34,134 nt of DNA, from NCBI GenBank assembly GCA_947260005.1, contig CAMYOL010000051.1:44882-79015 (forward strand), read 5' to 3'. The position numbers were made by a program, and so were the translations under genes. Under the pieces are notes generated by a model. That model made no database searches. It was not told where the DNA came from and worked only from the letters and a program-made list of their open reading frames with translations. Of this stretch, positions 12,534 through 29,922 are shown piece by piece. Origin of the DNA: an uncultured Ectothiorhodospiraceae bacterium. Lineage in GTDB: Bacteria; Pseudomonadota; Gammaproteobacteria; UBA6429; Thiohalophilaceae. Numbering within the stretch: the stretch's first letter is position 1; every line of letters begins with the position of its first letter.

Positions 12534-12614
12534 TAATGTGCCGTCTGTAAATTAATTTAATCTTGCCAGCTTAGGCGAGCGTCTCTCGGAGAACCGGAAT
12601 TAAAGCACATTTCA

Positions 12615-12713: not shown

Positions 12714-12767
12714 ATCTTTCGCATTTTGGCCTGTTCTGATACAAATATCGTCAAAAATCTCCTTTTC

Positions 12768-12796
12768 TTGACAAGCCGTCCGCCCATCCGCATGAT
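12768..12796 (+). promoter_or_regulatory. Predicted sigma-70 promoter for the btuB leader
   Basis: TTGACA at 12768-12773 matches the -35 consensus exactly. CATGAT at 12791-12796 matches the -10 consensus at four of six positions, with a 17-base spacer. Initiation near 12803 would place the transcript start just before the cobalamin riboswitch. Confidence 0.65.
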
Positions 12797-12812
12797 CCAC
12801 TCACAATTACTG

Positions 12813-12995: not shown

Positions 12996-13095
12996 AGTCG
13001 TTTTATGGGTGTGTCGCGGAGGGCGTCGCCAAAGGTTCGATCTGACTTTCCTCTGCACACGTATTACCTGCGCGGGTGCGCGTTTAGGAGGAAAA

Positions 13096-14943: not shown

Positions 14944-15593
14944 AAACATACCGACTCTACATAATGATTCTGGTTTCTGCGGGCATCCATTTGGGTGCCT
15001 TCGGACTCTGGATTCAGTCGAGTCAAAATATACATGTAACAACTGACATGCGTAGTCAAAATCTAAATGTCACACTAACTCAACCACAGACGCCCGTAAT
15101 CGAACCTAAAAAGCTTGTAAAGAAACCTAAGATGGTTAATAAACCGGTACACGAGCAAGTAGCGGTAAAAAGTGAGACTAAGACCTCCAGACCAAACCCA
15201 AAAAATGCGAAAAATCGTATTCCGAAAAAAACAAACTCAACTGAACCGTCAATACCTGCTCAACAAGCTATAAAACCACCTGAGCAAAAAACGGCTTTAT
15301 TGAATAATGATATGCTCAAAGCACTCCAGTCTGAATTCAGAGCCCGGTTTAAATACCCGATGCTGGCGCGAAAACGTGGCTGGCAGGGCAAGGTCGTGCT
15401 GGCATTAAATATAAATACTCAGGGCAAGATTGCTAATATTGCTATAAAACGAAGCTCCGGGTTTAAGATTCTTGATCGCAATGCGGTAAAAACATTTAAG
15501 GCAATCGATATGATCACACCCAGTCTGCACGAACGCATTAAACAATCACATTCATTTAATATCCCGATCATTTATCAACTTAACGGAGGTTGA
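14940..15593 (+). CDS. TonB-family energy transducer
   Basis: A 217-residue TonB-like protein. One N-terminal membrane segment (about residues 5-24) is followed by a lysine- and proline-rich periplasmic spacer (about 45-120) with repeated KKP and PKK motifs. A C-terminal TonB domain follows (about 128-217: MLARKRGWQGKVVLALNIN, GKIANIAIKRSSGF). TonB links the inner-membrane proton-motive force to outer-membrane receptors. Its start overlaps the btuB stop codon (ATGA), so it probably serves BtuB directly and shares the riboswitch control. No exbB or exbD is present, so it must borrow a motor encoded elsewhere. Confidence 0.9.
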   Translation: MKTYRLYIMILVSAGIHLGAFGLWIQSSQNIHVTTDMRSQNLNVTLTQPQTPVIEPKKLVKKPKMVNKPVHEQVAVKSETKTSRPNPKNAKNRIPKKTNSTEPSIPAQQAIKPPEQKTALLNNDMLKALQSEFRARFKYPMLARKRGWQGKVVLALNINTQGKIANIAIKRSSGFKILDRNAVKTFKAIDMITPSLHERIKQSHSFNIPIIYQLNGG

Positions 15594-15594
15594 C

Positions 15595-16158
15595 ATGGGA
15601 CACAGGCTATCAAAAATTTACACCCGAACCGGAGATAAAGGAACCACCGGATTAGGCGACGGAACCCGGGTCGAGAAAGATCATTTACGCGTCGAGGCCT
15701 TTGGTACGGTTGACGAACTTAATAGTCATATCGGTGCCATTATCGCGCACAAATTACCTGTTCGCGTTCGAGAGACACTTGAAGGCGTTCAGCATGACTT
15801 ATTTGACCTCGGTGGAGAACTTTGTATTCCAGGGCACAAGGCCATTATCGCCAGTTACACACAACGGCTTGAAGATACACTGGATGAACTGAATGCCGAC
15901 CTTCCTGCTTTAAAGGAATTCATATTACCGGCCGGAGGACTTGCTACCTCTCATTGTCACATTGCACGCACGGTTTGTCGCCGTGCCGAAAGACGCCTTT
16001 ACTCGTTAAGCAAGATTGATCAGGTCAGCATCGAAACCCTCTCCTATGTAAACCGACTTTCAGATTTGTTGTTTGTCATCGCTCGGATCTGTGCGCGATT
16101 TGAAAATGGACAAGAAGTATTATGGCAACCCGGTCGGTTTGAGAAATCGGAGGCTTGA
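15595..16158 (+). CDS. PduO-type cob(I)alamin adenosyltransferase
   Basis: A 187-residue PduO/MMAB-type ATP:cob(I)alamin adenosyltransferase. It transfers the adenosyl group of ATP to reduced cobalt, making the coenzyme form. The ATP-binding N-terminus is plain (YTRTGDKGTTGLGDGTR at about residues 9-25), followed by VEAFGTVDELNSHIG, and the C-terminal helix carries CRRAERRL, as the family does. GGAGG precedes the ATG, which starts 1 base after the tonB-like stop codon. It is the third gene of the btuB operon. Its last 39 bases overlap the end of the convergent kinase gene. Confidence 0.95.
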   Translation: MGHRLSKIYTRTGDKGTTGLGDGTRVEKDHLRVEAFGTVDELNSHIGAIIAHKLPVRVRETLEGVQHDLFDLGGELCIPGHKAIIASYTQRLEDTLDELNADLPALKEFILPAGGLATSHCHIARTVCRRAERRLYSLSKIDQVSIETLSYVNRLSDLLFVIARICARFENGQEVLWQPGRFEKSEA

Positions 16159-17148
16159 AAGATGCTGCTCTAGCTCACTGAGCACTTCAAGCTTTCGATC
16201 CCAAAACTGTTTTTCCAGATATTTATAACCAATTCTATCGACATTATAGACGTGAATGGCCATCACCCAGATGACTGAGACCAATTCATAATATGGAATT
16301 GATCGTATTTCATCAGCGGATAGTTTTCGATGCATCTGATAACCATCTATAAAGGCTGAAGAAATGCGATCTTTTGATCTTAATGAGTGTATCGAAGAAA
16401 TAAATTTCCCAATTTCAAATGCTCGGTATCCATATCCACATTGATCAAAATCAAACAGGGTGATCTCATTATTTTCATTTATATGAAAATTAGTCGAATT
16501 CACGTCACCTATGCAAAATCCAAATTCTCCATGATCGGTGGTTAAACAAGGAATATTCTTATGGATCTTATCTCTCAGCGAATACAAATAATTACAAGAC
16601 TCTCGACTAATAAAAGGTTCAATTGCCTCAACTGACTTGTTCAGGAGATACTCAAGTTCCAGAGTATGCTTGGAACTGTTAGGTATAAATTCGTGCCCTA
16701 ACTGATGTATCTGCGCAATAGAGTCCCCAAGTAACATACTTTGCTCAACCGTAACTCCATTCCCTGGTGCATACCCGTCAGCATATTCGAATAATGCCCC
16801 TACTCTCTCACCCTCGGGACTATGTATAACGAAACTGTATAGATTATCATTGGTTTTTATTGGTGAGGCTACCCGGGCCTGGTTGTTTTTAAGATAAGTT
16901 AACCATTCAAGTTCAAATTGAATTTCATCAAAATTGCGCCAGGTGTTTCTATATATACGTAAAATATATTTTTTATGTTCACAGGTAATTAAATAATTAT
17001 CATGTAAACCCAAAACATAAAATTCACAACGTAAAATATTTGTTAGTGAATAATTTTCCGAGACGAATCGACATATCGACTTTGAAGATAACTGAGAATA
17101 AGTATATTTTAATTTATCCAAAATCCATTCACTTTGAAATAGACACAC
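16120..17148 (-). CDS. APH-fold phosphotransferase (kinase-like)
   Basis: A 342-residue member of the aminoglycoside phosphotransferase/choline-homoserine kinase superfamily. ATP-lobe features include YILRIYRNTW. The catalytic loop is IGDVNSTNFHI, where the usual HGDxHxxN histidine is replaced by isoleucine while Asp and Asn remain. The metal-binding LFDFDQCGYGYRAFEIG follows. The small-molecule or protein substrate is unknown; similar stand-alone kinases include SrkA and type II homoserine kinase. The predicted GTG start is 3 bases from the end of the DUF6624 gene, suggesting one transcript. The gene is AT-rich, and its end overlaps the pduO-type gene by 39 bases on the opposite strand. Confidence 0.82.
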   Translation of the reverse strand: MCLFQSEWILDKLKYTYSQLSSKSICRFVSENYSLTNILRCEFYVLGLHDNYLITCEHKKYILRIYRNTWRNFDEIQFELEWLTYLKNNQARVASPIKTNDNLYSFVIHSPEGERVGALFEYADGYAPGNGVTVEQSMLLGDSIAQIHQLGHEFIPNSSKHTLELEYLLNKSVEAIEPFISRESCNYLYSLRDKIHKNIPCLTTDHGEFGFCIGDVNSTNFHINENNEITLFDFDQCGYGYRAFEIGKFISSIHSLRSKDRISSAFIDGYQMHRKLSADEIRSIPYYELVSVIWVMAIHVYNVDRIGYKYLEKQFWDRKLEVLSELEQHLSSLRFLKPTGLP

Positions 17149-17151
17149 ACA

Positions 17152-18003
17152 TTAACGCCAGCCAGTTTTTTTAGCCCACTCATTGTAACCCTTATTAAAG
17201 TTGTCAGGATCTTTTGGAGCACGACCACCTTCGCTCTGTATTTGTTGTTTGTGCTTGTCCCTATCGCTTTCTATGGGTTCTAGTCCAGCCAAAGCTCGAC
17301 GTTGATTTACCGTTTTTTCATCAACAATAGCGCCATAGCTAAATTCACCATTATCATCAAACCACCCAACCAGCCCATAAACCTGTGGTTTCTGTTCATG
17401 GAAATTAATCACATCGGCGAGATAAGCGACTAATCTCGATGGCACCTCGTTATTAACTTCAGCTTCAGATAATAACCGTAAGCAGTGTCTGAGGAAATCC
17501 GGACGACTAATTGCGTGCTGAGCAATTAGAAAGGCGGCGCGACAGCCATCCAATCCTACCAGCGAGGTCCCTGGCCATCCATACACATCAATAATATCAT
17601 TTAGACGATCAGCGTTTTTCTCATGAACTGCCAGCATTTTAGGATGATAGCCATCATACAACACATCTTGCTCAAGCAATAATGACCGCATTGCCTGATC
17701 CTGGTCTTGCAGCTCAAGCAATTCATCATGTATCTTCTGGTTGAATTTTCTATGCGTCGATTCAATAAATCGTTTTAATTTTGTCCAACTGGAAAAACCA
17801 TATTCTCGGGCAACCACACGTTGCGCATCGAGTACAGAAAATTTTGATTCAAAAATCTCTTTATCAGATTTCCCGGTAAATGAGAATTCAAAGTGTCTAA
17901 CGATAGGACATATAGAATTATCAGCTGTGCGATGTAAAGAACGTAACTTCTTAGCCTCTTTCTTAAGAAAATCAAGATTTGGCTTGTTGGGTAGGGATTT
18001 CAT
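17152..18003 (-). CDS. DUF6624 protein with ankyrin-protein-type leader domain
   Basis: A 283-residue protein. The ATG at 18003 is preferred because AGGAGG lies 8 bases upstream. A longer in-frame GTG at 18090 overlaps its own only candidate ribosome-binding site. Residues 5-75 (NLDFLKKEAKKL, then DAQRVVAREYGFSSWTKLKRFI) resemble the leader segment that precedes ankyrin repeats in many bacterial proteins, but no repeats follow. The C-terminal region (GWPGTSLVGLDG, IAQHAISRPDF, AYLADVINFHEQKPQVYG) fits DUF6624, whose function is unknown. It forms a probable operon with the APH-fold kinase 3 bases downstream. Confidence 0.75.
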   Translation of the reverse strand: MKSLPNKPNLDFLKKEAKKLRSLHRTADNSICPIVRHFEFSFTGKSDKEIFESKFSVLDAQRVVAREYGFSSWTKLKRFIESTHRKFNQKIHDELLELQDQDQAMRSLLLEQDVLYDGYHPKMLAVHEKNADRLNDIIDVYGWPGTSLVGLDGCRAAFLIAQHAISRPDFLRHCLRLLSEAEVNNEVPSRLVAYLADVINFHEQKPQVYGLVGWFDDNGEFSYGAIVDEKTVNQRRALAGLEPIESDRDKHKQQIQSEGGRAPKDPDNFNKGYNEWAKKTGWR

Positions 18004-18288
18004 AGAAATCCTCCTTTCATTAAACCCTGTTGCCCGCGATATCAGGTTGAAAGAAGGACAGAATAATGTCGCTTCGTAGGTGGAGGTCACCTCCTTTCCG
18101 CGGACTCAGATGCACCCTACTGCACTAAAAATGAGTCTAGCATAGAATTAACATCAGGGAATAAACTTTACCGCTACGAAGATATGCAGAATACTACCGA
18201 AATCAGTACAGATAAGATATTTTTTAAATTCTCATTTGTGTCTATAATATCGACCACTATTATAATCTACTATAAATGGTAATAAACA

Positions 18289-19056
18289 ATGAATAACCCT
18301 GTAATCCTTGTTGGTGTCGGTGAAATGGGCGGTGTTTTTGCCCGAGGAATCTTAAAGCTTGGTCATCCAGTCATTCCGGTCACTCGCAATATGGATATAC
18401 AAGCCGTGGCAGAAGAATATCCAGAACCATGTCTGGTTTTGGTTTCTGTTGGCGAGAATGATCTCCATCCAACTCTGGAAAAACTACCATCGCAATGGCA
18501 TTCACGCATCGGACTCTTACAAAATGAATTGCTTCCTCGTGATTGGCAGACTTACTCTTATAAAAATCCGACGGTCATCTCGGTCTGGTTTGAAAAGAAA
18601 AAGGGCCAGGACTTTAAAGTACTTATCCCCTCCCCGGCTTACGGACCACAAGCGACTCTGCTCGTTGAAGCCCTGGCCACACTTGATATACCCGCCACCG
18701 TAGTTGCCAATGAAGATGAACTGCTTTATGAATTAGTCCGTAAAAACGTCTATATTCTAACGACAAACATATCAGGTTTGATGACCGGTGGAACCGTTGA
18801 GTCGTTATGGCAAGACCACCGTGAGCTGGCAACCACCGTCGCCAATGAGGTGATTGATATTCAGGAATGGTTAACCGAACAAACTTATGACCGGGATCGA
18901 TTGCTAAATGGGTTCGTTGAAGGCATCGAAGGGGATTTGCAACACATGTGTATGGGTCGTTCCGCCCCGGGACGTTTAACGCGCGCGATTGGTTTTGCTG
19001 ATGAAGCTGGTTTAAAAGTAACGAAACTACGTGAAATATTTTCTGAAAAAGTTTAA
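18289..19056 (+). CDS. Rossmann-fold NAD(P)-binding protein, ketopantoate-reductase-like
   Basis: A 255-residue protein starting with a dinucleotide-binding motif (ILVGVGEMGGVFARGIL, residues 5-21), followed by helical C-terminal sequence (NVYILTTNISGLMTGGTVESL and a long helix near residue 190). The arrangement recalls the ketopantoate reductase/6-phosphogluconate dehydrogenase-like group, but the catalytic Lys/Asp/Glu set cannot be placed with confidence. I do not recognise a specific function. The gene ends 5 bases from the convergent small gene of the sortase cluster. The 285-base interval before it (18004-18288) holds an 18083-18095 GGAGGT/ACCTCC palindrome and nothing else I can name. 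Confidence 0.6.
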   Translation: MNNPVILVGVGEMGGVFARGILKLGHPVIPVTRNMDIQAVAEEYPEPCLVLVSVGENDLHPTLEKLPSQWHSRIGLLQNELLPRDWQTYSYKNPTVISVWFEKKKGQDFKVLIPSPAYGPQATLLVEALATLDIPATVVANEDELLYELVRKNVYILTTNISGLMTGGTVESLWQDHRELATTVANEVIDIQEWLTEQTYDRDRLLNGFVEGIEGDLQHMCMGRSAPGRLTRAIGFADEAGLKVTKLREIFSEKV

Positions 19057-19061: not shown

Positions 19062-19313
19062 CTACGATATTTCAGATATCACCCATTTATCCAGAAATAA
19101 ATTTCGTTGCATGGTCGTCGGGTTATCCGAATTAGACGAGTCATGTACTTCCTGATTGGTATAATCGATATAGCCTGGACCACTTACGGTTAACAATTCA
19201 ACGGAATCTATGTGTTCAATAGAGCCGTTAATGGTTTCCAGTGTCACCATCAGGTTTTCCAGTAACTCTTTATTTTCAGATTGTATATTAATTGATAAAG
19301 TATATTTACTCAT
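19062..19313 (-). CDS. Small uncharacterised protein encoded after the sortase gene
   Basis: An 83-residue acidic protein with no signal peptide or membrane segment, and I do not recognise its family. It begins with a beta-strand-like KYTLSINIQSENKELLENL and continues with a helix and strand pattern that could form a small ferredoxin-like fold. A GAGGA ribosome-binding site lies about 9 bases before the ATG. It starts 21 bases after the sortase stop codon on the same strand, so it is probably the third gene of the target-sortase operon. No such component is part of the PDS cluster as I know it. It is convergent with the 18289 gene. Confidence 0.6.
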   Translation of the reverse strand: MSKYTLSINIQSENKELLENLMVTLETINGSIEHIDSVELLTVSGPGYIDYTNQEVHDSSNSDNPTTMQRNLFLDKWVISEIS

Positions 19314-19334
19314 CTGATATTCCTCATAATTAAT

Positions 19335-19943
19335 TTAACTCAGGCAGGATTTGTCTACGCAAGGGTCGACCTCCTCTGCAAACACCACATATCGTAATGG
19401 ACCACTGCTATCGATCGCATTAAATGGATAACAGGTTACCAAGGTCAACCAATGCCCCTGTGCTGGAGCATTGATACCCATTTTCCCTGAGTCAATTATT
19501 TCCATATCTTCAATCTGATATTTTTTTACTTCCCCAAATTCATTTTGTAACTCTATGGTTTGTCCTAATTTAACATCCTGTAAAAAATTAAAATGCGTAT
19601 CACGATGCGCACTGATCATCGTTAATCCTGACGATTTATCCGTAAAGTGAAATACACGTTGTCCCGGAGCAAATGCCAAACTACTTCCATGGTCACCATC
19701 TAATACAATTTGATCGACATTCAATTCTGGCATGCGTAGGCGAGCAACAGGCCAGGTATCCGACCAGGGCCAGGGCTTAACCTGACTCGCGCCTGCCAGG
19801 GTTGACTGCCAGGCGGTATGCAATAAATTTTGTGCAATCACTGCCTTGACCGGAATATAAAAGGCGCTGGCAAGAAAATAGACTGCGATGACGGATAATA
19901 TAAACAATATCCACTTTAGAACTTTATCCGATAAGAAACGCAT
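19335..19943 (-). CDS. Class GN (marine proteobacterial) sortase
   Basis: A 202-residue transpeptidase anchored by one N-terminal membrane segment (about residues 10-33). The sortase catalytic triad is readable as His113 (SAHRDTHF), Cys171 (TLVTCYPF) and Arg184 (GPLRYVV). This group is found with a single dedicated target in mainly marine Proteobacteria, where the product is attached to an unknown cell-envelope acceptor. The ATG at 19943 is preferred: it overlaps the stop codon of the target gene (TAATG) and has AAGGA at a good distance. An ATG three codons upstream has no spacing to that site. The C-terminal tail has two extra cysteines (CVDKSC). Confidence 0.95.
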   Translation of the reverse strand: MRFLSDKVLKWILFILSVIAVYFLASAFYIPVKAVIAQNLLHTAWQSTLAGASQVKPWPWSDTWPVARLRMPELNVDQIVLDGDHGSSLAFAPGQRVFHFTDKSSGLTMISAHRDTHFNFLQDVKLGQTIELQNEFGEVKKYQIEDMEIIDSGKMGINAPAQGHWLTLVTCYPFNAIDSSGPLRYVVFAEEVDPCVDKSCLS

Positions 19944-22084
19944 TAAAACCATTCCTTACTTGGATAACGACGACGTAAAAATATCCTGACAACGATGGCA
20001 AGGAATAAACTTATCAGGCCAACGATGAGTTTCAGTTGCGCATCAGTGGCGGTTTTGGCAGAAAGAGGAATAACCTGACTTGTTTTAATGAAGGTGCTTT
20101 GTTTGTCAGCCAAAATTACTGGTTTTGCTGGTTGAAATTGAGTTCTTGAACGGACATGCGCCAGGGATCGATCAACCACCACCAGACTGGTATAGGGACT
20201 CATGATTTTATGCTTTAATGCTATATCAGTCATTCTCTTTTCAAGATTATTGATTGATTCCTCGCTTTGTTCGGAGCGGTCTTCAGTCAACATATTTATT
20301 TTTTGATGCGCCCAATGTTTTGCTATGCCAAAACCATTGTTACTGTCATTTAGTGAGAGCTGGCGACTCCACTCTTCACCATAACGATATCCGACGAGCT
20401 TTATCTGAGCTAATGGCGCTTTTGTTTTAATGCTAAATATGACGGGCTCACTCTCATATAAATCAGCAATGGTTTCAGGTATGACTTCAACCAAACCAGA
20501 ATTAATTACTAATCCAATATCCTGTAGTTGTGGACGATTTATTTTTTTTAATAACTTCCCTAATCGCTCCGATACTTCATTGGCATCACCGATATAGGTG
20601 TAGCTTCCACGGCCTACCTTAGCCGCTTTGTGTAAAAAATAACTGTTCGGTGAGGTACCAATTCCAACGGTAAATAAACGGTTTTTCTTAATATTGTTTC
20701 TAATCAGACCAAATACATCCCGCTCGTTGATAATCGCTCCATCGGTTAGATAGATTATTTGACGTCGTCGGTGTTCGGAATCCTGACTAGTCAGTGCTTT
20801 TCTTAAAGCGGGAAACATCTCCGTTCCACCGCGAGCATTAGACTGCGCAATAAACTGGCGTGCACGTGCTACATTAAAAACACTTGCCGGTTTTGATTGT
20901 TCAAATAAAGAATGCGTCTGTGTATTAAAGGTAATAATATTAAAATAATCCTCAGGATCTAAATCGGTTAATGCCGACAATATCGTGTCTCTAGCTTGAC
21001 GAATCGATGCGCCAGCCATTGAGCCAGACGTATCCACTAAATAAACCACTTCTTTATTGAGTAACGCCTGAGCAGACATTTCGGGTTGCTGATCGGATTG
21101 TTGGGGATACAACATCGCAAAATAATAATGTTCACCTTTAAATTTCTCATGAAACAGTGCTGTTCGGGGTAGTTGGCCTGGTTCGGGCCGCCAGAATAAT
21201 TCCAGATCTCGTTTTGCTAATACCGCTCCGAATTTAAATCGGATGCTATAACGACCCAATCCATGATTCGTTTTCTTAATCGCATGATATCGACTTTCTA
21301 ACTCAGCAAGTGGAAAGCCCGCATCTAATTCAATATGCAATGAAACTGGCGATTTACCCCCCGTTTGCGAAGATACTTGTGACGATTTATATTTTTTTAG
21401 CCTTCCAGGATTAAAATCTTCCTGTTCAGTACCAATATCACCCGATATATACCTGGGCTGCACTCTCATAGGAAAACGTAATTTAAATTCACCATCCTCA
21501 AACCGCGCCATATATTGAAACGAAATTTCAATTCTTACCTCTTCTCCCGGTGCAATGTTCGCAATTGAGCTATTAAAAATATTGGGTCTATGTTGTTCTA
21601 ATAATGCGGTGCGTTTATTTAAATTTTTTGCCGATTGATAGTGTCTCATTGCCTCGGAACGTGGCTTTATATCCGCATTGATAACCTGACCGCCCATTTG
21701 TATTTGTAGTGCATCAACAATGGCTGATGCTGGCAATGGAAACTGATAGATACCTTCCACCCATTCGTTGCTGGTATTTTTAAAAACTTGAGTCACTTTG
21801 CTACGATTAATCATTCCCGTAATACGCATATCGATCTCTGTTTTAACCATCAACGCTGACAATGAAACCCTGGGGTTCTGTGATACTAAAAACAAAGAAT
21901 TACTCTGATCTTCTTCTGCGGTCGCGACTTGCACAAAAGAAAAAAACATCAAAAAAGCAATCAGGATTAAAACATGCTGAAGCACATCCAGCGCAATCTT
22001 CGCTAATTCAGTTAACGGCCCGTGCCTAATGATATTATTCTGGGTGATATTGTCTTGGGCAATATTGTTTTGGTGTTGTAACAT
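19943..22084 (-). CDS. Marine proteobacterial sortase target protein (VIT and vWA domains)
   Basis: A 713-residue exported surface protein. After an N-terminal hydrophobic signal (about 35-53), a VIT domain spans about 60-190. A von Willebrand A domain follows with an intact MIDAS motif (DTSGSM near residue 350), later Thr (GGTEMF) and Asp (LTDGAI). The C-terminus is built for sortase processing: a short motif region VIPLSAKTATDA (671-682), a hydrophobic span (about 686-704) and an RRRYPSKEWF tail. The motif is not a canonical LPxTG. The domain pair resembles inter-alpha-trypsin inhibitor heavy chains, suggesting adhesion or matrix binding. AGGAGC precedes the start, and the stop codon overlaps the sortase start. 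Confidence 0.95.
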   Translation of the reverse strand: MLQHQNNIAQDNITQNNIIRHGPLTELAKIALDVLQHVLILIAFLMFFSFVQVATAEEDQSNSLFLVSQNPRVSLSALMVKTEIDMRITGMINRSKVTQVFKNTSNEWVEGIYQFPLPASAIVDALQIQMGGQVINADIKPRSEAMRHYQSAKNLNKRTALLEQHRPNIFNSSIANIAPGEEVRIEISFQYMARFEDGEFKLRFPMRVQPRYISGDIGTEQEDFNPGRLKKYKSSQVSSQTGGKSPVSLHIELDAGFPLAELESRYHAIKKTNHGLGRYSIRFKFGAVLAKRDLELFWRPEPGQLPRTALFHEKFKGEHYYFAMLYPQQSDQQPEMSAQALLNKEVVYLVDTSGSMAGASIRQARDTILSALTDLDPEDYFNIITFNTQTHSLFEQSKPASVFNVARARQFIAQSNARGGTEMFPALRKALTSQDSEHRRRQIIYLTDGAIINERDVFGLIRNNIKKNRLFTVGIGTSPNSYFLHKAAKVGRGSYTYIGDANEVSERLGKLLKKINRPQLQDIGLVINSGLVEVIPETIADLYESEPVIFSIKTKAPLAQIKLVGYRYGEEWSRQLSLNDSNNGFGIAKHWAHQKINMLTEDRSEQSEESINNLEKRMTDIALKHKIMSPYTSLVVVDRSLAHVRSRTQFQPAKPVILADKQSTFIKTSQVIPLSAKTATDAQLKLIVGLISLFLAIVVRIFLRRRYPSKEWF

Positions 22085-22244
22085 GTTTAGCTCCTGTTCC
22101 AGCGTGCCTTCCTTGGCCTCATTGTTTCCATTTACGCGCCGGTGTTTTAGTACAGTTACAGTTTGCTAGTCGACTCTGACGACAGCGGGGTCAGATTCGG
22201 GAAAGTCGCCGATGAATAATGACAAATCATGGCAATTTGGCCTC

Positions 22245-22272
22245 TTGACCCAATACCGCTTTAAATTATGCT
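22245..22272 (+). promoter_or_regulatory. Predicted sigma-70 promoter for pdsR
   Basis: TTGACC at 22245-22250 and TATGCT at 22267-22272 are separated by 16 bases, about 30 bases before the pdsR ATG, which has a strong GAGGAGG site. The 219-base divergent interval also contains a GGGGTCAGA half-repeat at 22187-22195. Confidence 0.55.
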
Positions 22273-22303
22273 AGGGTATATGTGACTTTGAGGAGGAGCA
22301 CGA

Positions 22304-22999
22304 ATGAGCAAGATCATTGCAATTGTTGAGGATGAGCCGGCCATCCGCGAAAACTATGCTGATGCCTTAAGCAAACAAGGCTATCAGGTCGATCAGTACC
22401 CTGGCCGTGATGAGGCCATGAATGCCTTTAACCAACGTCTGCCAGACCTTGCCCTGCTCGATATTGGCTTAAATGATGAGATTGATGGTGGTTTCGAACT
22501 CTGCCGTGCGTTACGTTCAATGTCCGATAACCTGCCGATTATTTTTCTCACTGCCCGTGACAGCGACCTTGATACAATTTCTGGCTTGCGTCTTGGCGCT
22601 GATGATTATTTAACAAAAGATATCAGCATTCCCAATTTATGTGCGCGGATAAGCGCCTTTTTCCGTCGTCTGGATTCTTTACAAAAACCCACCGCCGAGG
22701 ATGACTTGATTTCTCGTGGCCCACTCAGCATGGATATGAATCGCTTTACGGCCCAGTGGAATGATAATCTGGTTGATTTAACCCTGACCGAATTCTGGAT
22801 CGTGCATACGCTGGCCTTACGACCCGGCCACGTTAAGAATCGTGAACAACTAATGAGCGACGCAAAAATTGTTGTTGATGACGCCACCATCACTTCACAT
22901 ATCAAGCGTATCCGAAATAAATTTAGTAAATGGGACAACAACTTTGAATGCATCGATACTGTTTATGGAATGGGGTATCGTTGGAATGAGGCACAATAA
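22304..22999 (+). CDS. pdsR: PDS response regulator PdsR
   Basis: A 231-residue OmpR/PhoB-type response regulator. The receiver domain is complete: acidic pair D10/E11, phospho-acceptor Asp53 (LLDIGL), Thr83 and Lys105 (DYLTKD). The C-terminal winged helix (about 140-230) includes LTLTEFWIVHTLALRPGH and the recognition region ITSHIKRIRNKF. Its assignment to the Proteobacterial Dedicated Sortase system rests on position, being divergent from the sortase target and directly before the matching kinase, and on overall similarity to that family. It probably controls the target-sortase operon. Confidence 0.93.
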   Translation: MSKIIAIVEDEPAIRENYADALSKQGYQVDQYPGRDEAMNAFNQRLPDLALLDIGLNDEIDGGFELCRALRSMSDNLPIIFLTARDSDLDTISGLRLGADDYLTKDISIPNLCARISAFFRRLDSLQKPTAEDDLISRGPLSMDMNRFTAQWNDNLVDLTLTEFWIVHTLALRPGHVKNREQLMSDAKIVVDDATITSHIKRIRNKFSKWDNNFECIDTVYGMGYRWNEAQ

Positions 23000-23006
23000 A
23001 TAAAAT

Positions 23007-25199
23007 ATGGCCCGTAGTGTGACCCATCGTGTGACCCATCGTGTGACACAGCGGAAATCAACGCGTCTGCGTATAAGTATCCGTATTAAACTTTTCCTGG
23101 TCGCCTCTAGCCTGCTCATTATCCCCTGGATAGGTACACAATATATCCAGGAGATGGAATCCTATTTGCGCAATCAGCAAGAGGATGCCTTACTGACCAG
23201 AACGCAAATGGTCGCGGCGGTGATGCAAACCCGCCCAACATTATTCAATACACAAACCGTCGCACCGCTACCCACCACCCGCATCCAACACGTCTTCGTG
23301 CGCCCATTGCATTCCCGGATTCAACTCGATGGATATCTCGATGACTGGCGTCAATATCAGCAACGAATGCAGTTATTTAATGCCAACAATGCCCTAAAAG
23401 GTTCTGAAACAAGTTCAATATCCTTCAGACACCAGCTCGGCACCTATGGCAAATATTTATACGTCGTATTTGAGATCAATGACGACAATATAATTTATCG
23501 AAAACCAAATCACCTGTCGTTACACAAGAGTGACCACTTACGAATTGCACTCGAAGATAAACAAGGTCGGGTTAAACATTATATTATTACCACAATTGCC
23601 CCCGGCTGGGTCAATGCACATCAGGTCACCACTGATTTAACTGCCCCGCAAAGATTACGAGTAGAAAATCGTATTAAGGGTGAATGGCAGGAAACCGCCA
23701 CCGGTTACAACATTGAATTCCGTATCCCACTCAAATTAATCGGCAGTCGCCTGTCTTTTGCAATTGCCGATGTGGATGGTCAGGACAAACGCGAAGTCGA
23801 TACCATCATCGCGACCGCTGGTTTAAATGAAAACGAAGGCCTCGGAACCTTGATGTTTCCCTCACAACAAGCTGAAGACATGATCTCGCGATTACAACGC
23901 CCGCTGACGCGCACCTGGGTCATCGACTTGCATAACCGGGTAATCGCCCGTACCGGTACGCTTGTTAAAACGGAAAACCAGCTTGATTACGACCATGAAA
24001 AACAGGAATACAGTTTTTTTAGCGGGCTAATGACATTATTCTATAAATTAATATTAAAACAACCCGCAACGGAGTTTCATGATGAACTTTTAAACGCCTC
24101 ACGCCTTAACAGTGAAGAGTTTCGGAACGCCTTAAAAGGTGACCCCGATGTTCGATGGCGCCAAACCCCTGATAAAGAAGTTAATATACTCACCGCAACT
24201 TATCCTGTCGTTAGTAAAGATCAAATCATTGGGGCGATCGCAATTGAACAAACCAGCAATTCGATCCTGCTGGCACAAAACCGTGCGATGGAAATCATGT
24301 TTAACCTGAGTGCGCTGGCCTTTTTGATCGCCGCCATCGTGCTATTAGCCTTTGCGACACGATTATCATTACGTGTACGGCGACTTCGAGATGCAACTGA
24401 TCTAGCCATAACTGATGATGGTCGTGTCGTCGGCGAAATTAAGGCGACCTCAGATCGTGATGAAATAGGCGACCTGTCCCGCAGTGTGGCAGATATGTTG
24501 GATCGCCTCTCGCAATACAATCGTTACCTTGAAGGTATGGCGAGTAAACTGTCACATGAACTGCGTACGCCGATCACCGTTGTCCGCTCATCACTCGAAA
24601 ATCTGGCTCACACAGAAGGAAACGATGATAAAACGGTCTATATTGGGCGTGCCAAACAGGGCATCGAACGACTCAATAACATCCTTACTCGTATGAGTGA
24701 GGCCACTCGACTTGAGCAAACCATGCAAAGTGAACAAAAGGTCCGTTTTAATTTAGCCAGCGTTATTGAAGGCTGTATTGAGGGCTATCGATTGGCTCAT
24801 ACTGATGCAAAATTCGAATTAAATTTATCCCGACAACAAGACTATAGCTTGATGGGGTCCCCCGATTTAATTGCGCAAATGCTCGATAAACTAATTAACA
24901 ACGCCGTTGACTTCCATACTCCTGATACGGCCATTAACGTCAACTTGTCACAGTCAGAGGATGCTATAAATATAACCATTACCAATAAAGGACCGGTACT
25001 GCCAGAGGAGATGTCCGCGACGCTGTTTGAATCAATGGTGTCAGTACGTGATAAAAAAGGTGAGCAACCTCATCTTGGCTTAGGTCTTTACATTGTTCGG
25101 CTAATTGTTGAATATCATAATGGTGTAGTCATTGCGAAAAATTTACCCGACCACACGGGAGTGGAAATCAATATTAATCTTCCCACGACTAAATCATAA
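23007..25199 (+). CDS. pdsS: PDS sensor histidine kinase PdsS with CBM9-like sensor domain
   Basis: A 730-residue membrane histidine kinase. The first membrane segment is at about 28-44. A large extracytoplasmic region holds a CBM9-like beta domain (IQLDGYLDDW near 104-113, through about 290) and a further linker to about 425. A second membrane segment lies at about 430-452, followed by a HAMP-like region. HisKA carries His517 (KLSHELRTPITVV) and the ATPase domain shows LINNAVDFH and LGLGLYIVR. The sensor domain type suggests detection of a carbohydrate or related polymer. It starts 7 bases after pdsR. The first codons contain a 12-bp repeat (GTGTGACCCATC at 23017-23040), so the true start could be one of several in-frame GTG codons. 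Confidence 0.93.
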   Translation: MARSVTHRVTHRVTQRKSTRLRISIRIKLFLVASSLLIIPWIGTQYIQEMESYLRNQQEDALLTRTQMVAAVMQTRPTLFNTQTVAPLPTTRIQHVFVRPLHSRIQLDGYLDDWRQYQQRMQLFNANNALKGSETSSISFRHQLGTYGKYLYVVFEINDDNIIYRKPNHLSLHKSDHLRIALEDKQGRVKHYIITTIAPGWVNAHQVTTDLTAPQRLRVENRIKGEWQETATGYNIEFRIPLKLIGSRLSFAIADVDGQDKREVDTIIATAGLNENEGLGTLMFPSQQAEDMISRLQRPLTRTWVIDLHNRVIARTGTLVKTENQLDYDHEKQEYSFFSGLMTLFYKLILKQPATEFHDELLNASRLNSEEFRNALKGDPDVRWRQTPDKEVNILTATYPVVSKDQIIGAIAIEQTSNSILLAQNRAMEIMFNLSALAFLIAAIVLLAFATRLSLRVRRLRDATDLAITDDGRVVGEIKATSDRDEIGDLSRSVADMLDRLSQYNRYLEGMASKLSHELRTPITVVRSSLENLAHTEGNDDKTVYIGRAKQGIERLNNILTRMSEATRLEQTMQSEQKVRFNLASVIEGCIEGYRLAHTDAKFELNLSRQQDYSLMGSPDLIAQMLDKLINNAVDFHTPDTAINVNLSQSEDAINITITNKGPVLPEEMSATLFESMVSVRDKKGEQPHLGLGLYIVRLIVEYHNGVVIAKNLPDHTGVEININLPTTKS

Positions 25200-25332
25200 T
25201 TCGTCATATTCTATCGTTAAACCACCCTTTTCTCTCTTCGCTCTCGTCATATTGTTTTAGTTTACTGTACCTGTAGACATTTGAACGGCCCTGTGCACAT
25301 TGTCAGAGCCATAAACCAGCGAGGAAAGAAAC

Positions 25333-25971
25333 ATGTACGTAACTTTTAACAAAAAATCGATTGCACGAAATATTGCCCTGGCATTAGCTGCGGGTGTCCT
25401 TACTGTCGGGTGTGCCGGTAACGCCGCCAAACAGACGCAACCTTCTCAATCCAACGTAACACCAAAAGAACAGGCAATGGTCATTGAAAAATCTGAAGTG
25501 ACTTCAGAAAAACAACATGAAACCAGTGATGTTATCACTGCCGCAGAAGTCGAAGCCAAGATTGAAACTAACCCGGCTGCTCCGGTCATTCCTTATCCTG
25601 ATGTAGACATCAGCGAAAACACCAAACCCGAACAACTTAATTTCCAGTTTGGTTTTGATAAAGCTGAATTATCTGAAGAGGATGCCGAAATTCTAAAACA
25701 GCATGCAAAATTCTTGCTCGACAATCCTGAGATCGTTTTGAATATTAATGGTCATACTGATCATCATGGACCAAAGGTCTATAACGAATATCTAAGCAAA
25801 AAACGTGCGGATGCTGTCGCCAAGATCCTGATTGAGGCAGGCGTTCAGGAGGCACAAATAAAAATCAGCGCATTAGCAAACGATGAACCTCTACTTGACG
25901 TTGATAATACCCGTTTGAACCGTCGTGTTGAGCTTAACTATATTGAAATGAATATGGTTAGCGCAGAATAA
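25333..25971 (+). CDS. pdsO: PDS-associated OmpA-family lipoprotein PdsO
   Basis: A 212-residue envelope protein. The N-terminal signal ends in a lipobox-like LTVGC with Cys27, and a low-complexity spacer runs to about residue 95. The OmpA peptidoglycan-binding domain at about 97-205 shows NFQFGFDKAELSEED, NINGHTDHHG and LSKKRADAV, including the Asp and Arg positions that hold diaminopimelate in the family. An OmpA-family protein, pdsO, is known to sit beside pdsRS. The name here rests on that position, since ordinary Pal-like lipoproteins look similar. GAGGAAAG precedes the ATG and a strong terminator follows. Confidence 0.82.
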   Translation: MYVTFNKKSIARNIALALAAGVLTVGCAGNAAKQTQPSQSNVTPKEQAMVIEKSEVTSEKQHETSDVITAAEVEAKIETNPAAPVIPYPDVDISENTKPEQLNFQFGFDKAELSEEDAEILKQHAKFLLDNPEIVLNINGHTDHHGPKVYNEYLSKKRADAVAKILIEAGVQEAQIKISALANDEPLLDVDNTRLNRRVELNYIEMNMVSAE

Positions 25972-26078: not shown

Positions 26079-26984
26079 TTATTTCTTTAAATTTCTTCGA
26101 GCGATATCCGCCAGCTCACATAACTTTTCAGCTCCGTCTAGAATACGCGTAGACTGTCGATTAATAATATCCGGGTGTATAAAAAACAAATTATTATTTT
26201 TAACGGCTGAAAGTTCTTTCCAATTTTTCCATTTTGATAACCACTCCGGTTCCGAGACTGATAAGCCATTCGCGACACCGCTGGCTATAATCACCTGCGG
26301 ATCACCGTTAATGACTGCCTCCTGGGTCACTTTTGGTGCCATGATACGAGCGTCACTGAATATATTTTCAAGTCCACAAATATGCATAATCCGACTGATG
26401 ACAGTTTTACCATTGACAGTGTAAATCGGTTTGTGCCAGATTTGATAAAAGGCCCTGAGTTTGGGTTTGTTTTTATTTTCTTCTCTAATACTTAATAAAC
26501 GATTTTCAAAATGAGTCGCAGCCAGATTTGCCTGTTTTTCTTGTCCTAACAAAATACCTATATTACGTAAGGTCCTGGCAATATCATTAAGATCATGGGG
26601 TTCTATCAAATACACCGGTATATTAAATCTTTTGATACTTTCAATTTGTTGGCTATTACTCACCACTTCCCAGGCCAGTACCAGATCAGGTTTATAAGAT
26701 AATAAGGTTTCAATATTAAATCGCTCATAATCCCCTACCCGTTCAATTTTATTAGCCGCATCCGGATAATTGCTGGATTTGACCGTGGCGACTAACTTAT
26801 CTTCCCCACCCACTTTAAAAACCATTTCCGTTAACGAAGGCGCCAGGGTAATCACTCTTTGCGCTGAATGACTCAGTGTGATGGTATTATTTTTGTCATC
26901 GACGACACTTATTGCAAAAGATTTAGTTGAGATAAATAAACTAAAAACAATAACGAACAGGCTTATACCATTTTTTAGATTCAT
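26079..26984 (-). CDS. btuF: BtuF-like cobalamin-binding periplasmic protein
   Basis: A 301-residue class III periplasmic binding protein. A signal peptide (SLFVIVFSLFISTKSFA, cleavage near residue 24) precedes the first lobe (AQRVITLAPSLTEMVFKVGG, about 42-61, the typical BtuF/FecB start). A long linking helix and the second lobe follow (GLENIFSDARIMAPKVTQEAV). It delivers substrate to a BtuCD-type importer. The partner is probably the btuCD pair at 9944-11757, since none is adjacent. The start overlaps the cobS stop codon by 4 bases, placing it last in the cobU-cobT-cobC-cobS run. That context favours a corrinoid over an iron chelate. Confidence 0.88.
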   Translation of the reverse strand: MNLKNGISLFVIVFSLFISTKSFAISVVDDKNNTITLSHSAQRVITLAPSLTEMVFKVGGEDKLVATVKSSNYPDAANKIERVGDYERFNIETLLSYKPDLVLAWEVVSNSQQIESIKRFNIPVYLIEPHDLNDIARTLRNIGILLGQEKQANLAATHFENRLLSIREENKNKPKLRAFYQIWHKPIYTVNGKTVISRIMHICGLENIFSDARIMAPKVTQEAVINGDPQVIIASGVANGLSVSEPEWLSKWKNWKELSAVKNNNLFFIHPDIINRQSTRILDGAEKLCELADIARRNLKK

Positions 26985-27751
26985 CGCAACTGCTCAATAA
27001 TTACAAAATTAAATAAGACCAGCACCTCAATAAGCTCGATCAATGCGCCTGCCGTATCACCGGTGGTGCCCCCAATGCGACGACAGATCATCAATCGAAA
27101 CAGTACGACTGCAACGCTCACTGATAGGATGATCAATATACCATTCACTCCACCCCATAAGATCAATACGAGTGAAATACCCAGTAACGAGCCCCATATT
27201 TTTTTTCCTGGTATGTTGGACAGCATCACAGCGGCAATGCCATTTTCGCGAACATAAGGGGTGCAGGCCAATAACCCAGACACTGCAGCCCGGGCGATGA
27301 CTGGTGCAATAAATAAGGCCATCATCAGATTCGCATTTAACTCTGCCAACAAGACCAACTTTAATAACAACACTAAGACAATCGAAACAATGGCGGCAAC
27401 ACCCGCGTGTGTGTCCTTTAAGATGTTTAATGTTTTATCTTTATCACCATGCCCGCCTAACCAGGCATCTGCACTATCGGCCAGGCCGTCGAGATGCAAT
27501 GCGCCCGTCACAATCACCCAGGCTATCAATAACAGCATGGCGCTAAGCCCATCTGTAAAAATACCCGTCAGTAAATAAACGGCAATTAAACAACCACCAA
27601 TCAGTGCCCCGACTACCGGGTAAAATAGCAGCGAACCGGCCTGTACTGATTGATTATTTTGTTCAGTTGGCCACGACACCGGAACCGGTATAATCGTTAA
27701 AAAACGTACGGCGGTGACCAATGAAAGCCAGGCTGTACTAAAACCTGACAT
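26981..27751 (-). CDS. cobS: Adenosylcobinamide-GDP ribazoletransferase CobS
   Basis: A 256-residue polytopic membrane enzyme that joins adenosylcobinamide-GDP to alpha-ribazole or its phosphate, the final assembly step of the cobalamin lower loop. Family landmarks are AVRFLTIIPVP (residues 14-24), the acidic GALHLDGLADSADAWLGG (about 83-100), which binds metal and substrate, and GGTTGDTAGALIE near the C-terminus. Six or so hydrophobic segments are visible. It begins at the last base of cobC, and its stop codon overlaps the btuF start, so the genes are tightly coupled. Confidence 0.96.
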   Translation of the reverse strand: MSGFSTAWLSLVTAVRFLTIIPVPVSWPTEQNNQSVQAGSLLFYPVVGALIGGCLIAVYLLTGIFTDGLSAMLLLIAWVIVTGALHLDGLADSADAWLGGHGDKDKTLNILKDTHAGVAAIVSIVLVLLLKLVLLAELNANLMMALFIAPVIARAAVSGLLACTPYVRENGIAAVMLSNIPGKKIWGSLLGISLVLILWGGVNGILIILSVSVAVVLFRLMICRRIGGTTGDTAGALIELIEVLVLFNFVIIEQLR

Positions 27752-28350
27752 TAAAGCTGACCATGATGAAAGATCAATTGTGGATAATTTTTCTCGCCAT
27801 CGTGATCAATTTGTACCCGAGTAATCCCCGCATTGGCGACTTTAATTCGAAACACATGTTCAGGCGGCATACCTAAAATATATTGCATCGACATCCGTAT
27901 CACCCCGGCATGACAGACCACTAACAAATGTTGCCCTGAGTGATGCGTTAATAACTTATCCCAGGCCGATTCGATTCGTTTTTGAAACTCAATCAAGGGC
28001 TCTGCACCATTCGGACGTTCTTTAATCGGATCCCGCCAAAAGGCCTCAAGCGCACCGGGCATTTCAGTTTGTATTTCTGCTGCGGTCTTACCTTCCCAGT
28101 CACCAAAGCCAATTTCTTTAAAGTTTGGTTCAAACTTTAAAGCTCGCTGGTGGCGCTCGGACAATTCGTTTGCGAATTCAGCACAACGAGTCAGCGGTGA
28201 GGTAATGATAGTATCCCAGGGACAATGATCGGCCACCGCCGCACGCATTTGTGACCAGCCCTTTTCACTTAATGGATCATCAATCTGGCCACGATATTTT
28301 CTTCCCCCAACCGGTTCGCCATGACGAATTAAATCCACGGTCGTCATCAT
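27751..28350 (-). CDS. cobC: Alpha-ribazole phosphatase CobC (histidine phosphatase family)
   Basis: A 199-residue phosphoglycerate-mutase-like histidine phosphatase. The active-site LIRHGEP lies at residues 8-14, with the second conserved Arg in TSPLTRCAEFA, the catalytic Glu in FGDWEGKT, and the second His in VVCHAGVIR. In the cobalamin lower-loop pathway CobC dephosphorylates alpha-ribazole phosphate or adenosylcobalamin phosphate. The assignment depends on position between cobT and cobS, because the fold alone is not specific. The start overlaps the cobT stop codon by 4 bases. Confidence 0.9.
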   Translation of the reverse strand: MMTTVDLIRHGEPVGGRKYRGQIDDPLSEKGWSQMRAAVADHCPWDTIITSPLTRCAEFANELSERHQRALKFEPNFKEIGFGDWEGKTAAEIQTEMPGALEAFWRDPIKERPNGAEPLIEFQKRIESAWDKLLTHHSGQHLLVVCHAGVIRMSMQYILGMPPEHVFRIKVANAGITRVQIDHDGEKNYPQLIFHHGQL

Positions 28351-29423
28351 ACTGGTTCCTCTAGTGATATTTTTTCAGCCACACCGGCTTGTTCAAAAGT
28401 TGCCATGTTATTATGCAAGCCGATGGCTTGTTTTATTATGGAAACTGCCATCGCCGCCCCACTGCCTTCCCCTAATCGCATATCAAGATCCAGTAACGGT
28501 GTTGCCTTTAATGCCTGTAATACATATTTGTGCCCGGGTTCTTTTGATTGATGACCATAGATGAACCAGTTACCAACATCAGGATTAATCGCCAGAGCAT
28601 ATAAGACCGCAACACTGGAAATATAGCCGTCGACTAATACCGGAATGCCAACTTGCGCACAGCGAACATAGGCCCCGACTAATGCTGCGATTTCGGCACC
28701 CGCAAAATATTGCAGTCGCGTTAATGCATCTTTGGTTTTATCTTTATGTAACTCCAATGCTTGCTCGATGACAAGACGTTTATGTGCTATACCATCCGCA
28801 TCCAGTCCGGTACCGGGACCAACCAATTGTTCAACATTGACCTCTAACTCCACTGCAGCCAATGCGGTGGCACTGGTGGTATTACCGATCCCCATTTCAC
28901 CACCGATAAACAATTGTGTGTTGTTTTGTACTGACTGTTCAACAAGCTCATAACCTACATACAGCGCAGAGCATAGTTCTGTCTCTGTCATAGCCGCTTT
29001 TACCGCAAAGTTGGCCGTGCCATTGACTACTCGTTTGTTCAAAACTTTTTGTGATGAGTTTGGTGGAGCATTAATACCGACATCCACCACGGTTAAATTA
29101 GCATTTAACTGATTTGCCAACACACTGATCGCGGCACCACCGTGAATAAAATTTTCAACCATTTGCGCAGTGACCGCTTGCGGAAAAGCACTGATGTTCT
29201 CATCGGTTACGCCGTGATCACCCGCGAATATACAAATGTTGATATTATCAATTTCAGGTTTTACTACGCCTTGCATCGCAGCAAAGTTTATCGCCAGTTC
29301 TTCCAGCCGACCCAGTGCCCCAGGCGGTTTAGTTAATTGCATTTGATGTGCCTGTGCATCAAGTAAACTATTGTGATCCCATGCTTTCGCAGTATCGTTC
29401 AGCCAACTTATTTTCTTATTCAT
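28347..29423 (-). CDS. cobT: Nicotinate-nucleotide--dimethylbenzimidazole phosphoribosyltransferase CobT
   Basis: A 358-residue enzyme that activates the lower-ligand base by transferring ribose phosphate from nicotinate mononucleotide, giving alpha-ribazole phosphate. Landmarks are LTKPPGALGRLEELA (about 29-43), FAGDHGVTDENISAFP, and GEMGIGNTTSATAL with the conserved glycine-rich loop; a C-terminal catalytic Glu is likely in LGEGSGAA. The ATG at 29423 gives a length equal to typical CobT (about 350-360) and overlaps the cobU stop codon by 8 bases. A TTG nine codons upstream is in frame but less likely. nadC in the same window makes the co-substrate nicotinate mononucleotide. Confidence 0.95.
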   Translation of the reverse strand: MNKKISWLNDTAKAWDHNSLLDAQAHQMQLTKPPGALGRLEELAINFAAMQGVVKPEIDNINICIFAGDHGVTDENISAFPQAVTAQMVENFIHGGAAISVLANQLNANLTVVDVGINAPPNSSQKVLNKRVVNGTANFAVKAAMTETELCSALYVGYELVEQSVQNNTQLFIGGEMGIGNTTSATALAAVELEVNVEQLVGPGTGLDADGIAHKRLVIEQALELHKDKTKDALTRLQYFAGAEIAALVGAYVRCAQVGIPVLVDGYISSVAVLYALAINPDVGNWFIYGHQSKEPGHKYVLQALKATPLLDLDMRLGEGSGAAMAVSIIKQAIGLHNNMATFEQAGVAEKISLEEPV

Positions 29424-29922
29424 CTTTAATTCTATTCTCAATTCCTGCAATCATTTGTGTGACTCGCTGACAGTGTTTTGCCAGCCTTTGATGCAACCGG
29501 CCTGTTTCATCTACAAAACGGCGAGTCTCTTCTCCTAACGGCACCACTCCCATACCAACTTCATTGGTCACAAAAATGATTGGGGTGGTAATATTTTCAA
29601 TTACCACAAAAAACTGTGCCATCTCTTGTTCATACTGTTTATTTTCCAGTGCTAAAATATTTGTCATCCACAGAGTCAGGCAATCCACGATAACAAATGC
29701 ATCTGGATTAATTGATAATACTTTACTCAATTGAATCGGTTCTTCGATGGTCTGCCAGTGAGGAGGACGATTATACTTATGATGAGAGATGCGTTGTTGC
29801 ATTTCCTGATCCTCCGCGGTCGCCGTCGCGATGTAGAGGACACTCCGATTACTGTCTTCGGCACATTGTTCAGCGTAGGCGCTTTTCCCAGAACGAGCGC
29901 CGCCTATTACCAGTTCTAACAT
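29416..29922 (-). CDS. cobU: Bifunctional adenosylcobinamide kinase/guanylyltransferase CobU
   Basis: A 168-residue enzyme that phosphorylates adenosylcobinamide and then adds GMP, giving adenosylcobinamide-GDP for CobS. The P-loop GGARSGKS is at residues 7-14. Other family landmarks are YIATATAEDQEM, the guanylyl-acceptor region RISHHKYNRPPHW, VDCLTLWMTN and TNEVGMGVVPL. It starts 9 bases after the ampE stop codon without a clear ribosome-binding site, which suggests translational coupling to ampE. It leads the cobU-cobT-cobC-cobS-btuF series, and no B12 riboswitch precedes it. Confidence 0.96.
   Translation of the reverse strand: MLELVIGGARSGKSAYAEQCAEDSNRSVLYIATATAEDQEMQQRISHHKYNRPPHWQTIEEPIQLSKVLSINPDAFVIVDCLTLWMTNILALENKQYEQEMAQFFVVIENITTPIIFVTNEVGMGVVPLGEETRRFVDETGRLHQRLAKHCQRVTQMIAGIENRIKDE

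Follow-up and report, generated by a model that had tools for sequence, protein, structure and literature searches.

A variant Proteobacterial Dedicated Sortase locus and the apparent separability of its control genes from the sortase and its target

Introduction

What sortases do in Gram-negative cells has been called unknown (PMC10581121, in excerpt), and a locus in which a sortase and its target lie beside a two-component pair raises the question of whether the regulators are there for the sortase at all, and what the sortase does with its target. We consider such a locus at positions 19062-25971 of a 34,134-nucleotide stretch (hereafter the window) of contig CAMYOL010000051.1, from an uncultured Ectothiorhodospiraceae bacterium whose assembly comprises 3.71 Mb in 81 contigs. 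A preliminary description, made from the sequence alone, had read it as a complete Proteobacterial Dedicated Sortase system with a sortase, a single VIT/vWA surface target, PdsR, PdsS and PdsO. We find that the locus is a variant form of this known system, and the comparisons below suggest that its regulator–kinase–OmpA unit is separable from the sortase–target pair. In the open-licence literature we recognised no experimental work on the system other than a deletion of srtA (PMC8176591, in excerpt), and no account of its control.

Assignment of the locus

The span holds two divergent gene sets, with the target, the sortase and a gene for an 83-amino-acid (aa) protein on the minus strand and the regulator, the kinase and an OmpA gene on the plus strand. 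Bit scores were judged against the curated cut-offs of NCBIfam or, for Pfam domains, against gathering scores. Four of the five parts score above their cut-offs: a class GN sortase of 205 aa (19335..19952, minus; TIGR03784, 193.6 bits, cut-off 158.25; PF04203, 71.4 bits), a sortase target of 713 aa (19943..22084, minus; TIGR03788, 626.3 bits, cut-off 551.65; matches to PF08487 and PF13768), the OmpR-type response regulator PdsR (22304..22999, plus; TIGR03787, 391.6 bits, cut-off 335.7) and the sensor histidine kinase PdsS (23007..25199, plus; TIGR03785, 762.4 bits, cut-off 612.2). The target and sortase genes overlap by 10 bases. The fifth part is an OmpA/Pal-like lipoprotein (25333..25971, plus) that matches PF00691 at 66.7 bits and carries a lipobox, LTVGC-A, recognised by eye. 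Against TIGR03789 (pdsO) it reaches 50.1 bits for a cut-off of 152.2, and none of the 10 matches to TIGR03789 in the source genome is over that cut-off. The coordinates and gene order of the preliminary description were right and its assignment to the system stands for four of the five proteins; the PdsO label does not, and its gene set was incomplete, as the 83-aa gene that opens the span (19062..19313, minus) went unnamed.

Position and architecture argue in the same direction as the score, and PdsO was rejected as a name for the window's OmpA gene. The cut-off for PdsO is passed by the proteins at L068, L004, L036 and L017, and that of L074 falls narrowly under it (143.8 bits); all five carry a glycine zipper, and in none was a lipobox seen by eye. 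Their genes lie between target and regulator in the first four (in L004 and L017 as taken from coordinates) and behind the sortase in L074. The window-type protein has a lipobox and no glycine zipper, and its gene stands behind the kinase, an arrangement common to the congeners and to L062, L065, L010, L014 and L033. An exception is L015, where an OmpA protein of the lipoprotein type occupies the PdsO position, and at L066 (G031) no OmpA match is present in the 2.2 kb available behind the kinase. The window's OmpA protein and PdsO are, as judged from their sequences, different families, found mostly in different positions.

The control genes occur without the sortase and target

Two samples were used, one of 40 genomes from the window's family and one of 369 genomes from its class; in the class sample sortase absence was taken as no class GN hit at E 0.001. 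In the family the kinase is over the TIGR03785 cut-off in 11 genomes, eight of which have a sortase hit. In G017, G008 and G022 the kinase is present with no sortase hit in a six-frame search and no target match; all three keep regulator, kinase and OmpA gene, and both sides of the site lie on one contig. In G008 and G022 the regulator–kinase–OmpA unit is at the same site, between PduO-like and BtuF-like genes, and the leader element described below is followed by a stump whose sequence looks, by eye, like the signal peptide of the target. For these two genomes the stump suggests that a sortase–target pair has been lost.

In the class sample the kinase is over the cut-off in 38 genomes, divided equally between those with a class GN sortase hit (19) and those without (19). 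Target and sortase both lie within 6.5 kb of the kinase in 9 of the 38, several of the contigs being short, and an OmpA gene lies within that distance in 21, including 10 of the 19 without a sortase. Sortase–target pairs whose available flanks match neither regulator nor kinase were found, for example, at L003, L009, L016, L023, L025, L028, L029 and L039. Two kinases over the TIGR03785 cut-off, those of L136 and L142, have no strong PdsR match beside them.

A quick, midpoint-rooted kinase tree was built from 54 rows (the 38 of the class sample and 16 added, seven from the family and nine from sortase-adjacent loci). On it sortase adjacency requires at least 10 changes, six of them forced by well-supported branches, and the mean for shuffled states is 18. 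G008 and G022 together are sister to six sortase-bearing family rows including that of the window, with support of 99 for the eight. The tree has weak points, in that G017 and several deep rows are poorly placed and long branches meet (xL030, xL012).

Many of the sortase-less genomes are drafts, with contigs that end near the kinase in L126, L127, L128 and L135, so that assembly gaps or missed genes might be suspected in place of real absences. The three family genomes speak against this, with sites continuous on one contig, empty six-frame searches and listed completeness of 100 (G017), 99 (G008) and 97 percent (G022), and we would be very surprised if gaps or misses were the explanation. Because half of the kinase-bearing class genomes have no sortase hit and three relatives have neither sortase nor target, we suggest that the regulator–kinase–OmpA unit is separable from the sortase–target pair, whose presence beside the unit has changed repeatedly. 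The description of the two-component control as dedicated keeps its support as regards control of the divergent operon, from the conserved box described below, but sits poorly with the 19 kinase genomes that have no sortase hit.

A conserved leader precedes the target operon

Alignment of spacers brought out a conserved block ahead of the target, which in the window occupies 22085..22146 (minus; core 22099-22142). Its parts are an outer helix (CCGGCG/CGCUGG), a free GGA and a hairpin GCC-AAGGAA-GGC, then a Shine-Dalgarno site ACAGGAG and the ATG; a following CA is conserved, and the window's Shine-Dalgarno site also contains GGA. The loop has the form of a CsrA/RsmE site, an ANGGAN hexaloop on a short stem (PMC7652899, in excerpt).

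The first leader search required a hairpin, and the pairing and loop seen in the resulting 20-row alignment (A7) are thus partly by construction: all 20 rows have an ANGGAN loop, and in 19 a second GGA lies 17-33 bases from it, within the 10-63 nucleotides set as the criterion. A looser search that demanded neither hairpin nor loop matched 24 of 59 regions, of which 20 were accepted and four (L036, L140, L072 and L127) were dropped, the GGA loop or the following CA being missing. Eighteen of the accepted regions have at least three hairpin pairs, L062 has three when read by hand, and L119 has two.

The covariance model gave 24 hits with E <1e-6 in 95 loci (1,426,124 bases), namely its own 20 rows and L151, L119, L144 and L137; weak hits in L073, L108, L030 and L027 (E 0.03-0.94) were kept out of this number. 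L137 had matched the first pattern and was excluded from the model as not beside PdsR; the model recovered it. Twenty-three of the leaders are on the strand opposite PdsR, 123-247 bases from its start, and that of L137 lies behind the kinase. When the 24 rows are aligned, by fitting to the covariance model, 99.1 percent of cells pair, and three of nine pairs have changed on both sides, compared with 0.5 in shuffles.

The leader's arms could instead be two nested inverted repeats of a DNA operator. The almost invariant sequence of the outer arms, the tie in position to PdsR and the weak folding energies of single sequences would all be expected of an operator, but the conserved ANGGAN loop is one-sided, the stretch between the outer arms varies from 31 to 49 bases, changes in the hairpin stem are compensated, and the core ends 14-42 bases ahead of the picked start codon in 22 of the 24 leaders (L059 and L069 differ). 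We regard an operator as rather improbable. Several observations nevertheless weigh against an RNA structure. The outer helix is so nearly invariant that its pairing depends on two changes, one double and one single, and one of its cells is unpaired; six single leaders do not fold clearly better than shuffles (z -1.38 to 0.69, the window's being -0.78); L098 has no upstream GGA; among the 95 loci searched, 71 gave no leader, a large share of them having no PdsR; and these 71 include loci with PdsR and an adjacent sortase, such as L010, L014, L033 and L068.

The gene behind the leader is the target in 13 of the 24 cases (that of L067 is broken in frame), and in L070 an extra short gene precedes the target. 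In L119, L121, L122 and L152 it is the OmpA gene. In L106, L107, L141, L144 and L137, none of which has an adjacent sortase, it encodes a peptide of 40-52 aa with one hydrophobic segment, such as that at L106:8428-8586 (minus). In L098 a frame of 34 aa and then a homologue of the 83-aa gene follow. Searches of Rfam, taken as far as E 5, found nothing in the window or L153. A match of L122 to RF00623 (E 0.41), on the opposite strand and far below the gathering score, was set aside as chance. These comparisons suggest a new conserved leader with an ANGGAN hairpin of the kind bound by CsrA/RsmE, and control by a CsrA/RsmA protein is putative.

A putative PdsR site between the divergent operons

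Between the leader and the PdsR gene a pattern match identifies a 25-base-pair (bp) box, TTGCCATGATTTGTCATTATTCATC (22211..22235, minus). The pattern TTGYCATNATTNRTCANNATTCATC occurs with at most three mismatches of 21 in 18 of 61 regions upstream of PdsR, and with at most five in 28. Of these 28 regions, 27 have the box in the same orientation and 26 are unequalled in 60 shuffles. The box is also present, at three mismatches, in the sortase-less G017, G022 and G129. Two points tell against a general site: the remaining 33 regions have six or more mismatches, many being no better than shuffles (L106 has eight), and the pattern was drawn by eye from several of the regions that it was later used to score. 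The box, which lies between the divergent operons, is probably the binding site of PdsR.

The sensor of PdsS

PdsS has two membrane segments, near residues 21-47 and 426-458, with a large periplasmic sensor between them that was modelled at a predicted local distance difference test score (pLDDT) of 83.2. Within the model, residues 49-240 resemble CBM9 modules (Foldseek E 2.4e-7; 7nwn with Z 18.2 and a root-mean-square deviation, rmsd, of 2.5 over 164 residues), and the window's kinase matches CBM9 by sequence as well, scoring 32 bits against PF06452 (CBM9_1) for a gathering score of 23.4. CBM9_1 is found in 13 of 27 sensor rows at E 0.001. The flanking parts match Cache sensors, that of WalK (4ywz, Z 13.0, rmsd 3.0, 137 residues) being tied with others (9mrh, Z 13.6; DctB 3by9, Z 12.7), and the Pfam family Cache_WalK (PF23846) is found in four of the 27 rows, the window's not among them. 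The predicted sensor is a CBM9 domain (23286..23861, plus; from PF06452 and the structure model) inserted in a Cache domain.

The sortase, its target and the acceptor

The sortase has one N-terminal membrane segment (hydrophobic 6-40) and all of the catalytic blocks, HRDTH, TCYPF and RY. Its sole match among solved structures is 2ln7 (E 8e-8), which we take to be a class D sortase, and its next-best NCBIfam matches are class D families, NF058671 (66.2 bits, cut-off 140) and NF033746 (65.2 bits, cut-off 165); both are below cut-off, and membership in class D was rejected. At L026:5773-6213 a second, weaker sortase-like frame lies near the main one, scoring 60 bits to the window's sortase and having Pro at the position of the catalytic Cys (TPWPF for TCYPF).

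The target consists of a signal peptide, a VIT domain, a vWA domain with DTSGSM and a C-terminal sorting signal, with hydrophobic segments at 26-58 and 679-705. The signal (19946..20062, minus), read from the target's C terminus, is made up of SAKTAT, a hydrophobic stretch and the tail RRRYPSKEWF. In the source genome PF04203 finds one sortase and TIGR03788 finds one protein over cut-off, and when 14 sorting tails are used as a profile the window's target is matched at E 4.5e-21 and the next match has E 0.72; with no second confident sorting tail, the earlier claim of a single target is borne out. The placement of that target on the surface is not, nothing seen in the locus being fit to carry it across the outer membrane.

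The motif is SAKTAT and not LPXTG, with the Pro of the usual LPxTAT replaced by Ala. Of 48 distinct targets, two of which (those of L034 and L059) were read by hand, 32 have Pro where LPxTG has its proline, 15 have Ala and one has Thr, and the Thr position and next residue are TA in 37 of 47 targets as read by script. Pro is lacking in all four species of the window's genus, whose motifs are SAKTAT, SAKTAT, LAKTAT and STQTGT. In the sister species G001 the target (L059:8162-9361) is an open VIT-only frame from which vWA is gone and in which the signal peptide and sorting signal are kept.

Because it belongs to the sortase family, the enzyme is proposed to cleave SAKTAT between Thr and Ala and to transfer the acyl group of Thr onto an amine. 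We lean slightly toward the amine of meso-diaminopimelate (m-Dpm), in lipid II or peptidoglycan, as acceptor, since class D families are the next-best matches, 2ln7 is the structural match, the target carries a TA-type motif, and Bacillus anthracis SrtC, presumably a class D sortase, offers a precedent. The same amine is present in the peptidoglycan of Gram-negative bacteria. SrtC cleaves the Thr-Ala bond of LPNTA with m-Dpm as nucleophile, and its expression is under two-component control (PMC3297441, in excerpt).

Two other fates were considered for the target. A covalent, outer-membrane-linked adduct with the OmpA lipoprotein (or PdsO), the anchor offered in the preliminary description, would account for the OmpA gene at seven of the nine class-sampled loci at which target, sortase and kinase occur together. 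We consider it distinctly improbable, as sortase–target pairs without regulator or kinase match (for example those listed above other than L039) have no OmpA match in their available flanks either, the OmpA gene accompanies the kinase in sortase-less genomes of the class sample and persists in the three sortase-less relatives, and the window's OmpA protein and PdsO differ in family and mostly in position, L015 having the lipoprotein type at the PdsO position. The sortase might also be chiefly a protease or hydrolase, releasing the target from the inner membrane to the periplasm without joining it covalently to an acceptor. This would suit a single target, a locus with no obvious acceptor gene and a thin Gram-negative wall in which anchoring appears less obviously useful; the catalytic blocks, however, appear to be those of a transpeptidase, and such a role seems unlikely to us.

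The 83-aa gene of the target operon

The third gene of the target operon has a GAGGA ribosome site upstream and encodes a protein with no membrane segment and a conserved C-terminal motif of the FLDKW type. It evolves as a protein-coding gene, because nonsynonymous divergence (dN) is 0.10-0.21 and synonymous divergence (dS) is >2 or saturated. Homologues are present in 11 of the 40 family genomes: all nine with a sortase hit (eight over cut-off, and G011 with its sortase in two pieces), and G016 and G017. The association with the sortase gives a Fisher p of 2e-7, uncorrected for kinship and obtained with a query alignment built from the nine sortase-linked copies. Two homologues are found in the 369 genomes of the class sample, both in the window's family. 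The copy in G016, which has no kinase over cut-off, is broken; that in G017 is intact and adjoins PdsR, though sortase and target are gone.

The protein has no match above chance in NCBIfam, Pfam and PHROGs. Its structure model is poor (pLDDT 60), and its profile gave only two weak matches to solved structures (E 0.04 and 0.08). An 82-aa open reading frame of G022 (L107:571-819) resembles the family by eye in a short C-terminal part, and no relationship is claimed.

Genomic setting

The locus is embedded in a cobalamin uptake and salvage cluster (window 9944-16158 and 26079-29922), in which a cobalamin riboswitch (12800-13010) precedes a TonB receptor gene, and BtuCD-, PduO-, BtuF- and CobS/CobC/CobT/CobU-like genes, assigned by eye, surround the sortase genes. 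Parts of this setting are also present in L059, L002, L106 and L107. A gene for a PF01636 phosphotransferase-family kinase and a DUF6624 gene lie at 16120-18090, between PduO-like and dehydrogenase-like genes; the pair is absent at the corresponding site in L059 and L002, and is therefore likely to be a recent insertion. The dehydrogenase-like gene (18289-19056, with a weak NAD-binding match) adjoins the sortase locus in congeners too, and in L098 it is beside the OmpA gene despite rearrangement of other genes there.

Discussion

Sortase, single VIT/vWA target with its three-part C-terminal signal, and PdsRS are seen directly in the sequence; for the remaining mechanism we infer the following, and give the whole, as a variant Pds locus with CBM9-Cache sensing, control through box and leader, and a target joined to the diaminopimelate amine, a probability of about 0.6. 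PdsS would sample a periplasmic glycan or other ligand through its CBM9-in-Cache domain, and phosphorylated PdsR would bind the 25-bp box and drive the divergent operon of target, sortase and small protein, and probably its own operon too. Bound to the leader's GGA hairpin, a CsrA/RsmA-type protein would repress translation of the operon, and titration of that protein would relieve the repression. The target would leave by Sec and be retained by its C-terminal membrane segment until the sortase acts, the product being a VIT/vWA protein of the periplasm that is linked to the wall. The OmpA lipoprotein would be a separate, non-covalent tether between outer membrane and peptidoglycan within the same regulon. 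Some considerations count against this scheme: the acceptor is drawn by analogy, CBM9 ligands vary and the shared fold does not fix that of PdsS, and deletion of srtA in Shewanella oneidensis did not significantly change current density (PMC8176591, in excerpt).

A further, tentative arrangement, which we think possible though doubtful, would make glycan-sensing PdsRS the true core. It would control one divergent transcript through the box and a family of CsrA-type leader RNAs, and the first gene of that transcript would be exchangeable, being a sortase target, OmpA/PdsO or a 40-52-aa membrane peptide that might act back on the kinase. The sortase–target pair would then be optional cargo, and the signal-peptide region of the target would persist as such a peptide after loss of the pair. 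An adjacent sortase–target cassette has been described, and the same target family also bears GlyGly-CTERM or PEP-CTERM signals (PMC3237569, in excerpt), which fits an exchangeable sorting half.

The system itself is known; what is new is the leader, the 25-bp box that is probably PdsR's and the predicted CBM9-in-Cache kinase sensor, the last with the limit that no literature search aimed at CBM9-Cache kinases was made. The results supply pieces that can be tested: the box is defined, the leader has its GGA sites, the fold of the sensor can be named, and there are natural genomes that keep the control half without the sortase half. If the separability holds, the "dedicated" regulators are not dedicated, and both the annotation of these genes and the phenotype to be sought would change.

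Comparison with known systems

The window resembles the Proteobacterial Dedicated Sortase system in having sortase, VIT/vWA target, PdsR and PdsS over their cut-offs, with target and sortase divergent from PdsR and PdsS; it differs in the absence of PdsO, the OmpA lipoprotein behind the kinase, the extra 83-aa gene and SAKTAT in place of LPxTAT. The leader shares with CsrA/RsmE hairpins (PMC7652899, in excerpt) the ANGGAN hexaloop on a short stem, to which its spaced second GGA may be added, whereas the conserved outer helix and following CA set it apart, as does the lack of an Rfam match in the window and L153. PdsS and PdsR have CreC and CreB as their next-best matches, and four of the 27 sensor rows, the window's not among them, match the Cache_WalK family of WalK-type kinases; PdsS differs in the predicted insertion of a CBM9 domain in its Cache domain. 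B. anthracis sortase C with BasI/BasH (PMC3297441, in excerpt) offers a TA-type motif, a two-component pair and an m-Dpm acceptor, and class D is the next-best class of the window's sortase; that system is Gram-positive and belongs to sporulation, whereas the window encodes a single VIT/vWA target, in a cell with two membranes, and a sortase well below the class D cut-offs.

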